This document shows, one piece after another, positions 18,148 to 20,072 of a DNA stretch of 26,207 bases. A program made the translations under genes and the position numbers. The notes under the pieces were generated by a model. That model searched no databases. It was not told where the DNA came from and saw only the letters and a list, made by a program, of their open reading frames with translations. Within the stretch, counting starts at the first letter, position 1. Every line of letters begins with the position of its first letter. Source of the DNA: a virus; the IMG/VR virus record IMGVR_UViG_3300048922_000036, positions 1 through 26,207 of that record; one strand, given 5' to 3'.

Positions 18148-18441
18148 ATGTGGGCAATCACAAGCACCAGCTATCGCGCAATTGGTGACGGCGACACGCT
18201 CGGGCCTGACGAAACGGTGGCCGCTGAGGTTCCCGCCTCCCTACTCGCTGGTATTGCGGCCGCGGAAGGCCGTTCCCTCCGTGAACAGCGTCTTCGGGCC
18301 TCAGACTGGACGCAGATGGCAGACGCGCAGCTCAGCCCGCAGGTACGAGAGCTGTGGATCACCTATCGCCAGCAGCTTCGGGATCTCCCTGAAGTCGATG
18401 GCTTCCCTGACTGTGAGTGGCCAACAGAGCCAGTAACATGA
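18148..18441 (+). CDS. tail fibre assembly chaperone-like protein
   Basis: A 97-residue protein ending in the pattern found in fibre-assembly chaperones and the Phage_TAC/gp37-type C-terminal domain: LREQRLRASDWTQMADAQLS, then RELWITYRQQLRDLPEVDGF and a terminal W-P. A good site GGGAGG lies upstream of ATG 18148. It follows a tail fibre gene with a five-base gap, exactly the usual fibre-chaperone pairing. Its stop overlaps the ATG of L. It probably helps the adjacent fibre trimerise or attach. Confidence 0.85.
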   Translation: MWAITSTSYRAIGDGDTLGPDETVAAEVPASLLAGIAAAEGRSLREQRLRASDWTQMADAQLSPQVRELWITYRQQLRDLPEVDGFPDCEWPTEPVT

Positions 18442-19133
18442 TCACTGCAGATGCCCAGCAGCTCGAGCCAGGTGGCCGGGTCACCGTCTACGAGCTGGAC
18501 GCCAGCAGTTTCGGGGCTGATCAGCTGTTCTTCCACCAGCACCTGCAGACCGGGGTGATCTGGTGGCAGGGCCAGGAATACGGTGCCTGGCCGATCGAGG
18601 CAACTGGCTTTGCCAGGACCAGTGACCAGCCGCCGAACCCGCGCCTGCGCGTGAGCAACATCGACGGGCGCATCGGCGCGCTGTGCCTGATGTTCGACGA
18701 CATGGTCGGCGCGCGCATCATCCGCCGGCAGACGCTGGTGAAGTACCTGGACGCGGCGAACTTCCCTGATGGTAATCCGACAGCCGACCCCAACGAACAC
18801 TTCCTGGACGAAATCTGGTTCATTGAGCGCAAGGTCTCGGAGGACTTCGAAACGGTCGAGTTCGAGCTGGCCACCGCGATCGATCTCAACGGGGAGCAGC
18901 TGCCCGGCCGGCAGATCATCGCCGGCACCTGCGGCTGGCTGATCCGCGGCGGCTACCGGGGGCCGTACTGCACCTACAACGGCTCGGCGTACTTCGATAT
19001 CAACGACAATCCGGTCGCCGATCCGGCTCGCGACGTGTGCGCTGGCCTGGTCCGCAGCTGCAAGAAGCGCTTCGGCGAGAACAACCCGCTTCCCTACGGC
19101 GGATTCCCGGCCGCCGGGTTGCTGCGCACGTAG
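18438..19133 (+). CDS. L: minor tail protein L (Fe-S type)
   Basis: A 231-residue homologue of lambda gpL (232 residues). Clear matches are WWQGQEYGAWPIEATGF, PRLRVSNIDG, LDAANFPDGNPTADPNEHF and LPGRQIIAGTCGW. The four C-terminal cysteines that bind the iron-sulfur cluster in lambda gpL are all kept: C165, C178, C201 and C208. The start ATG 18438 overlaps the previous stop; an in-frame upstream start at 18417 would extend into the chaperone gene and is less likely. It is part of the tail tip with M, I and J. Confidence 0.93.
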   Translation: MITADAQQLEPGGRVTVYELDASSFGADQLFFHQHLQTGVIWWQGQEYGAWPIEATGFARTSDQPPNPRLRVSNIDGRIGALCLMFDDMVGARIIRRQTLVKYLDAANFPDGNPTADPNEHFLDEIWFIERKVSEDFETVEFELATAIDLNGEQLPGRQIIAGTCGWLIRGGYRGPYCTYNGSAYFDINDNPVADPARDVCAGLVRSCKKRFGENNPLPYGGFPAAGLLRT

Positions 19134-19144
19134 TAGACTTTCGA

Positions 19145-19284
19145 TGTCGATGGATAGTCCCGGCCTGGATCGGTGCAGCCGGGGGTCGTAGGGGGCGCGC
19201 CTACCTTCATGCCCATGGGTAAGGCCATGGGATTGGGCCAGCAAGGGTCGCGCCTTGCGGTGGTTCGAATCCACATCATCGACA
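19145..19284 (+). ncRNA. tRNA-like structured RNA between L and K (candidate)
   Basis: There is no gene in this 200-base gap, but it is highly structured. TGTCGATG (19145-19152) pairs perfectly with CATCGACA (19277-19284), closing the element like an acceptor stem. Inside are a CCCGGC/GCCGGG hairpin (19159-19183), a GTAGG/CCTAC stem with a seven-base loop (19188-19204), a GCAAGG/CCTTGC hairpin (19241-19258), and an exact tRNA T-arm: GTGG, loop TTCGAAT, CCAC at 19260-19274, giving GGTTCGAATCC. At about 140 bases it is too long for a normal tRNA, the supposed anticodon loop lacks U33, and no CCA follows. It could be an aberrant tRNA, a tRNA-like regulatory or processing element, or a remnant. 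A terminator follows at once. Confidence 0.4.
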
Positions 19285-19292
19285 CTTCTAAC

Positions 19293-19317
19293 AAGGCCCG
19301 CCAAGTGCGGGCCTTTT
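19293..19317 (+). terminator. intrinsic terminator after tRNA-like element
   Basis: Perfect nine-base stem AAGGCCCGC (19293-19301) with GCGGGCCTT (19307-19315), loop CAAGT, and T run 19314-19317. It would end a short RNA from the 19145-19284 element and also stop late transcription before K unless antiterminated. Confidence 0.85.
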
Positions 19318-19331
19318 CTATGGGTGAAACC

Positions 19332-20072
19332 ATGCAACAAAGCACCCTCGAAGCGATCCAGGCGCATGCCGTGGCCGAGTACCCGCGCGAGTGCTGCGGG
19401 CTGGTGGTGGCCACTGCCGCGGGCGAGCAGTACCTGCCATGCCGCAACACCGCCGAGACCCCCAGCGAGCACTTTCGGCTTCCGGCCGAGGACTTTGCCG
19501 ATGCCGAGGATCAAGGTGAGCTGTTGGCGGTTGTGCACAGCCACCCCAACGCCGCAGCCACGCCGTCGGACGCCGATCGCGTCATGTGCGAGGCGAGCGG
19601 GCTGCCCTGGCACATCGTCAGCGTTGGCCAGGTCACCGGCGAGCCGGCGGAATGCGCAGACCTTCAGACCATTGAGCCTTGCGGCTACGAAGCACCTCTG
19701 ATCGGCCGTGAGTTCGCCCATGGCGTGCTTGACTGCTACAGCCTGGTTCGGGACTTCTACGCGCGCGAGCTGGGCATCGCCCTGAGCCAGTACGACCGCG
19801 AGGACGACTGGTGGGAGAAAGGGCAGGAGCTCTACAGCATGGACCGCATGCAGGCCGAGGGCTTCCAGCCCATCGCCGGCGAGCTGCAGCGCGGCGACAT
19901 GATCCTGATGCAGATCCGCTCGCCGGTGCCAAACCACGCCGGCGTCTACCTGGGCGACGGCCAAATGCTGCACCACCTACATGGCCGGCTGTCTGAGCGT
20001 GTACCCTACGGCGGCATGTGGGCGGAGCGCACCTGCTACATCGTCCGCCACCGGGAGGCCCGCCATGACTGA
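19332..20072 (+). CDS. K: tail assembly protein K (JAMM + NlpC/P60)
   Basis: A 246-residue protein with two enzyme-type domains, as in lambda gpK. The N-terminal JAMM/Mov34 metalloprotease motif has E20 and H69-S-H71 then S79-x-x-D82 (HSHPNAAATPSDAD). The C-terminal NlpC/P60 domain has Cys135 (LDCYSLV) and His202 (NHAGVYLGDG). Lambda gpK is required for tail tip assembly. ATG 19332 is preferred to 19320 because GGTGA lies just upstream of it. The gene is separated from L by the structured element and terminator, whereas in lambda the two are adjacent. Its end overlaps I. Confidence 0.93.
   Translation: MQQSTLEAIQAHAVAEYPRECCGLVVATAAGEQYLPCRNTAETPSEHFRLPAEDFADAEDQGELLAVVHSHPNAAATPSDADRVMCEASGLPWHIVSVGQVTGEPAECADLQTIEPCGYEAPLIGREFAHGVLDCYSLVRDFYARELGIALSQYDREDDWWEKGQELYSMDRMQAEGFQPIAGELQRGDMILMQIRSPVPNHAGVYLGDGQMLHHLHGRLSERVPYGGMWAERTCYIVRHREARHD

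Follow-up and report, generated by a model that had tools for sequence, protein, structure and literature searches.

The gap between the tail tip genes L and K of a temperate, Stenotrophomonas-type phage with lambda-like tail genes is occupied by a structured RNA of about 140 nt that is real, is under selection and occurs in two unrelated phage contexts. The phage is represented by the window, the whole stretch of 26,207 nt that was analysed (IMG/VR virus record IMGVR_UViG_3300048922_000036, positions 1 to 26,207). The RNA is tRNA-like and is not a tRNA, since a G at position 33 and an additional hairpin, referred to here as hairpin B, argue in its sequence against a working tRNA. The explanation that we favour, tentatively and with a confidence somewhat short of even, is that of a trans-acting, phage-carried ('moron') tRNA mimic, which would be cut from the late transcript by the tRNA-processing enzymes.

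A gap of about 200 bases between L and K had been pointed out in the initial annotation, and it is real, since L stops at 19133 and K begins at 19332 or at an alternative in-frame ATG at 19320. From L to K, the gap consists of a leader of 14 nt, the ~140-nt RNA, a spacer of 8 nt and the intrinsic terminator (Table 1). In both of its known contexts the RNA has the same orientation as the late-operon genes around it, and no promoter was found adjacent to the window copy. Several of the other inserts of the L-K gap also begin with TAGTA at the stop codon of L. In one genome that also carries the RNA (L321:238-1488), the L gene is enlarged to 416 aa, as against 238, by roughly 180 codons inserted in frame between the residues that correspond to NFP and DRNPTAD of L.

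Table 1. Features of the L-K region of the window, with positions counted from its first nucleotide.
Feature	Position	Strand	Remarks
Tail tip gene L, upstream neighbour	18417..19133	+	Pfam Phage_tail_L PF05100, E 1.6e-74; stop codon TAG at 19131-19133
Leader TAGTAGACTTTCGA	19131..19144	+	Same in all five L-K copies; starts from the L stop codon; left insertion border
tRNA-like RNA, conserved core, ~140 nt	19145..19284	+	Six copies with compensatory changes; 184 bits with covariance model R1
Acceptor-like stem, 5' strand	19146..19153	+	8 bp with 19276-19283, inner end G-U; two double compensatory changes
D-arm-like hairpin	19158..19184	+	7-bp stem 19158-19164/19178-19184, GG in loop; from the fold, stem invariant
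Anticodon-arm-like hairpin	19188..19204	+	5-bp stem, 7-nt loop GGGCGCG; one double compensatory change, A-U to G-C
Extra hairpin B, CCCAUGG/CCAUGGG	19212..19231	+	From the fold; invariant; without tRNA counterpart
Hairpin C, in the position taken by a long variable arm in type II tRNAs	19241..19258	+	Conserved loop GUCGCG; three double compensatory changes
T-arm GUGG-UUCGAAU-CCAC	19260..19274	+	4-bp stem, loop TTCGAAT (19264-19270); CGGTGGTTCGAATCCAC identical in host tRNA-Tyr
Acceptor-like stem, 3' strand (19276-19283), and A at discriminator position (19284)	19276..19284	+	Followed by CUU in the window, CCA in L164
Intrinsic terminator of the L-K gap	19293..19319	+	9-bp hairpin AAGGCCCGC...GCGGGCCTT, then TTCT; older than the RNA insert
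Tail tip gene K, downstream neighbour	19332..20072	+	JAB and NlpC/P60 domains

The closing stem of the window copy comprises 9 bp (19145-19153 with 19276-19284) when the terminal U-A is counted. This outermost pair, U19145-A19284, is a C/A mismatch in four of the six copies of the RNA, and the conserved stem is therefore made of the eight pairs that follow it. The eight-pair closing stem of the initial annotation is thus present, although the conserved one sits one pair inward of 19145-19152/19277-19284, where it had been placed. The several hairpins reported from the gap are recovered in the fold as the D-like and anticodon-like arms and hairpins B and C, and the exact T-arm with paired flanks was likewise borne out. 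The motif GGTTCGAATCC occurs once in the window, at 19262-19272, against a chance expectation of 0.35 when up to one mismatch is allowed, and the design of a T-arm with an adjacent 8-bp acceptor appears in one of 100 dinucleotide shuffles (one strand). The folding energy is lower than that of shuffled sequences, with z = -3.0 for the whole gap and z = -2.5 for the RNA alone. When the window copy is folded by itself, thermodynamics favours pairing its anticodon-like arm and hairpin C in another way; this alternative long-arm fold is ruled out because its pairing is broken in the diverged copy, L164.

Six distinct copies of the RNA have been identified. Five of them lie in the L-K gap of diverged phages, namely those of the window, L161 (identical to L165), L163, L327 and L321, these four being further distinct phages or prophages and the last lying in a Stenotrophomonas-group genome, and one (L164) is found elsewhere. 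The survey of the gap was made on K/L relatives from viral contigs and genomes and included 157 viral-contig loci with both genes. In most of the close relatives the gap is 58-95 nt long and holds the terminator alone, and in more distant ones it is absent. The RNA is 96-99% identical among the L-K copies and the leader 100%, whereas the third codon positions of L and K in the same phages are 55-75% identical; the spacer and the terminator vary. Strong selection on the RNA or its recent exchange as a unit is therefore indicated. The L164 copy is encoded by an unrelated phage, downstream of the tail-terminator gene and after the capsid and neck genes, and is followed by two terminators.

The comparison of the L164 copy (173 bits with model R1) with that of the window reveals double compensatory changes at two pairs of the acceptor stem (U-A to C-G and C-G to U-A), one of the anticodon-like arm and three of hairpin C. 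The loops [AG]G[AG]CGCG and GUCGCG are kept in L164 despite the changes in their stems. In the alignment of the six copies 97.4% of the cells pair, as compared with 28-47% in slid controls, and six pairs have changed on both sides where 1.0 is expected, none of 500 shuffles being as good. The initial annotation had proposed to look for covariation in relatives and for compensatory changes in the closing stem; both are present, the stem contributing two of the six double-changed pairs. The whole of this signal corresponds to one split, L164 against the others, because just one copy has diverged, and the D-like arm, hairpin B and the T-stem are invariant and have the support of the fold alone. 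L164 also encodes ACCA directly after the acceptor stem, which is the position of the discriminator and CCA in tRNAs, where the L-K copies have ACUU.

A covariance search of 345 Xanthomonadaceae genomes and 369 genomes of the same class yielded one true copy (G032, a Stenotrophomonas-group genome). Two weak matches in those genomes were judged to be due to chance, as they are partial alignments without the T-arm, and the pattern matches in the viral contigs L162, L166-L168, L325, L326 and L328-L332 are ordinary tRNAs or chance. The window RNA has no BLAST match among GenBank phages and plasmids, and the single weak match of the L164 copy in the same collections was taken as chance. No match to the window was obtained in Rfam 15, and permissive scans with two of the copies gave none above the gathering score. 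No published family for the RNA was found in a search that covered few subscription papers.

The terminator had been described as perfect and as the RNA's own. It is neither. Relatives without the RNA have the same terminator, with a GGCCCGC-type stem, in their gap of 58-95 nt, so it is not the RNA's own and predates the insertion; its T run is short and a consensus scan did not list it. A conserved terminator between the essential tail genes L and K is seen in the Stenotrophomonas phage group and is absent from most distant relatives, in which the two genes abut.

The main rival explanation is that the RNA acts in cis on this terminator, either as a put-like antiterminator or as an attenuator that sets the dosage of K-I-J. 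In both contexts the RNA is directly followed by intrinsic terminators, and these by the next late gene, and a terminator within an essential tail operon must be read through to some extent. Pairing with the GGCCC arm of the terminator would be open to UUGGGCC (19233-19239), which is conserved and apparently unpaired, but GGCCC/GGGCC complementarity arises easily by chance in such GC-rich DNA. Many of the relatives without the RNA keep the terminator, so the RNA is unnecessary for passing it, and control in cis would leave the T-loop, the 8+4 branch and the ACCA of L164 without a role. We consider this explanation unlikely.

A further possibility, also listed in the initial annotation as an RNase P/E signal, is that the RNA serves in processing or stability, as a tRNA-like hook at which RNase P or RNase E cuts the late mRNA between L and K and from which the freed RNA is of no use. 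Such a hook would agree with a tRNA-like acceptor branch lying on the same strand within the late operon. A bare T-arm and acceptor would not need the loops CGCG, GUCGCG and GUNAGG to be kept on changing stems, however, and the element is absent from most relatives; we regard it as rather improbable. The body of the RNA appears to be used, beyond serving as a cleavage hook, because its conserved loops sit on stems that change.

A working aberrant tRNA, charged and decoding with an Arg-like or suppressor anticodon, would have to be of the 8/4 allo-tRNA type, a form reportedly described by Mukai et al. in 2017. The acceptor branch has 8 + 4 bp in all copies, stacking to 12 bp, in place of the 7 + 5 of the canonical tRNA; the T-loop agrees with the canonical TTCRANY on a paired stem. 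An anticodon-like arm with a 5-bp stem and a 7-nt loop speaks for a tRNA, as does the ACCA end of L164. Against it, position 33 is G in six of the six copies, with a loop of the form [AG]G[AG]CGCG across the family, hairpin B is additional, and the would-be anticodon varies between GCG and ACG among the copies. The absences of U33 and of a 3' CCA from the window copy, where ACUU is found instead, had been recorded at the outset and stand. ARAGORN detected no tRNA when run without introns and gave forced, inconsistent Pro and Lys readings with them; the best Rfam tRNA score is 15.2 bits, for tRNA-Sec, against a cut-off of 47, and no tmRNA was found by ARAGORN or by tmRNA models. In its 8/4 branch and in the length of its D-stem and variable region the RNA is like the allo-tRNAs of 8/4 and 9/3 type, in which a long acceptor and a short T-stem also add up to 12 bp, the 9/3 tRNAs having a lengthened acceptor and a shortened T-stem (PMC7590224). 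The window RNA differs from them in the extra hairpin, in the lack of U33, in its length (140 nt as against about 90-100) and in being missed by ARAGORN. With G33 and hairpin B the RNA is unlikely to be translationally active, and a working tRNA is on the whole quite improbable.

The resemblance to the host tRNA-Tyr, a type II tRNA, comprises 17 nt that match exactly at the T-arm and 27 nt at 93% when the end of the variable arm is included. The two share the T-arm, similar bases just 5' of it and an A at the discriminator position, but the host tRNA has a GUA anticodon and a different acceptor, D-arm and variable region, and the tRNA-Tyr-like variable-arm sequence is absent from L164. The tRNA-Tyr resemblance of the T-arm region may be taken as suggestive. 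That the RNA is what remains of a host tRNA gene or attachment site, as the 17-nt match would suggest, is hardly credible and is largely refuted by the covariation; with compensatory evolution and strong conservation in six copies, a second, unrelated location and a host tRNA match limited to one T-arm, with no longer match, this reading is unsupported. Among the options listed in the initial annotation, a new small RNA or tRNA mimic is thus the best supported, because six pairs covary (0 of 500 shuffles), while the degraded tRNA or att remnant falls away. A coding role, in which translation from an ATG at 19209 would extend K at its N-terminus or yield a small peptide, has next to nothing to commend it: the frame from this ATG is open into K in the window, but it does not reach the K protein in the other L-K copies checked, these breaks refuting the reading, and of the codons spanning the RNA five differ between the window and L164, each by a non-synonymous change and mostly within compensatory base pairs.

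The L-K gap is an exchange site that is occupied by the tRNA-like RNA, by a second, unrelated structured RNA or by small ORFs. The second class of RNA has been identified in the L-K gaps of L012 (2255-2501), L013 (2345-2501), L038 (2301-2501), L045 and others, and further elements are found in L145 (3211-3462), L334-L370 and L374-L378. It has a freely covarying closing stem of 6-12 bp (variants GGUGGUG/CACCACC, GGCGGUG/CACCGCC, GGAGGCG/CGCCUCC and GGGGGUG/CACCCCC), two hairpins and a variable middle of 48-148 nt. The loop of the 3' hairpin, GCCGG-AGAUCAGCA-CCGGC, can pair with that of the 5' hairpin, GCGCA-GGCUGA-UGCGC, as a kissing-loop (GCUGAU/AUCAGC). The 3'-hairpin pattern is matched by 38 viral contigs, and the full architecture is seen in 28 distinct elements. 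A blastn search with one element revealed 167 GenBank phage records (Klebsiella, Pseudomonas, Escherichia and others), the matches being to the conserved ends and the full fold not having been checked record by record. No matching family for this class is present in Rfam 15. Adjacency to tRNAs, considered as a general trait of the class, was rejected, as it holds for only 5 of 35 elements. A short viral contig (L359:1629-1924) carries a permuted tmRNA (RF04321, 106 bits) and two tRNA genes together with a kissing-loop RNA.

Small ORFs of about 70-80 codons occupy the slot in L007 and L009 (gaps of 313-315 nt), L157 (371 nt) and L100/L105 (293 nt, the ORF being on the opposite strand). Three slot ORFs had no family in PHROGs.

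The T4 species 1 RNA (rnaC), of 139 nt as compared with about 140 nt here, is likewise phage-encoded, and is a stable RNA. Like the window RNA it terminates in an exact GGTTCGAATCC T-arm (GGGTTCGAATCCC) and has an acceptor-like closing region, with hairpins in between. The covariance model R1 gives it 5.5 bits and matches the T-arm alone, and the likeness is therefore one of design, kinship being unsupported. The T-stem has 5 bp in rnaC and 4 bp in the window RNA, and rnaC adjoins rnaD and the tRNA cluster, whereas the window RNA stands alone between structural genes. In the T4 genome (L371; AF158101, 70908-71046) the species 1 RNA ends in the perfect T-arm GGGTTCGAATCCC and has no Rfam family above the gathering score. 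The window RNA resembles both rnaC and the allo-tRNAs and is assigned to neither.

For the favoured trans-acting tRNA mimic, the processing, the action in trans and the target are steps that we infer. The RNA would be carried as an accessory 'moron' insert in the late operon and co-transcribed with the tail genes; it is accessory because in relatives the same gap is empty or is taken up by small ORFs or by a different structured RNA. It combines a tRNA-type acceptor branch, a D-like arm and an anticodon-like arm with an enlarged, two-hairpin variable region. The host RNase P would cut the late transcript at the 5' end of the acceptor stem, and the 3' end would be trimmed and given its CCA by the host tRNA enzymes, so that a stable RNA is released. 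Once free it may mimic a tRNA in trans or serve as a decoy, and plausible targets are tRNA-directed enzymes or tRNA-cleaving defences.

Phage tRNAs are known to counter tRNA-cutting defences, and Septu and the retron PtuAB act at the variable arm of tRNA-Tyr (PMC13096335, PMC11555353). The tRNA-Tyr of T5 and T6, which acts against retron-Eco7 and Septu, has in common with the window RNA a tRNA-like body and a hairpin resembling a variable arm, the part that the nucleases cut; the T5/T6 RNAs are true tRNAs and the window RNA is likened to them by structure alone. To serve as a tRNA decoy would be the most natural activity of the RNA, and we give this about one chance in three. In the fuller proposal, phages have a hitherto undescribed family of tRNA mimics, distinguished by the 8/4 branch and a fifth arm, which are swapped as a mobile RNA 'moron' in a tail-operon slot that also hosts the second RNA class and which shield the phage as decoys for a tRNA-directed host system; this combination is conceivable, and we hold it to be less probable than not.

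The T4 species 1 RNA has been recognised for decades as a small stable RNA coded by a phage, and to our knowledge no function has been assigned to it. A temperate phage of lambda type, from a different group of hosts, is now seen to carry an RNA that matches it in size and plan. The role of phage tRNA-like RNAs could be tested here by clean deletion, because the window RNA is small, alone in its gap and apparently dispensable. The tail-gene slot further indicates that an accessory locus in a phage can consist of RNA alone, and such loci escape the protein-based searches for moron and anti-defence genes.
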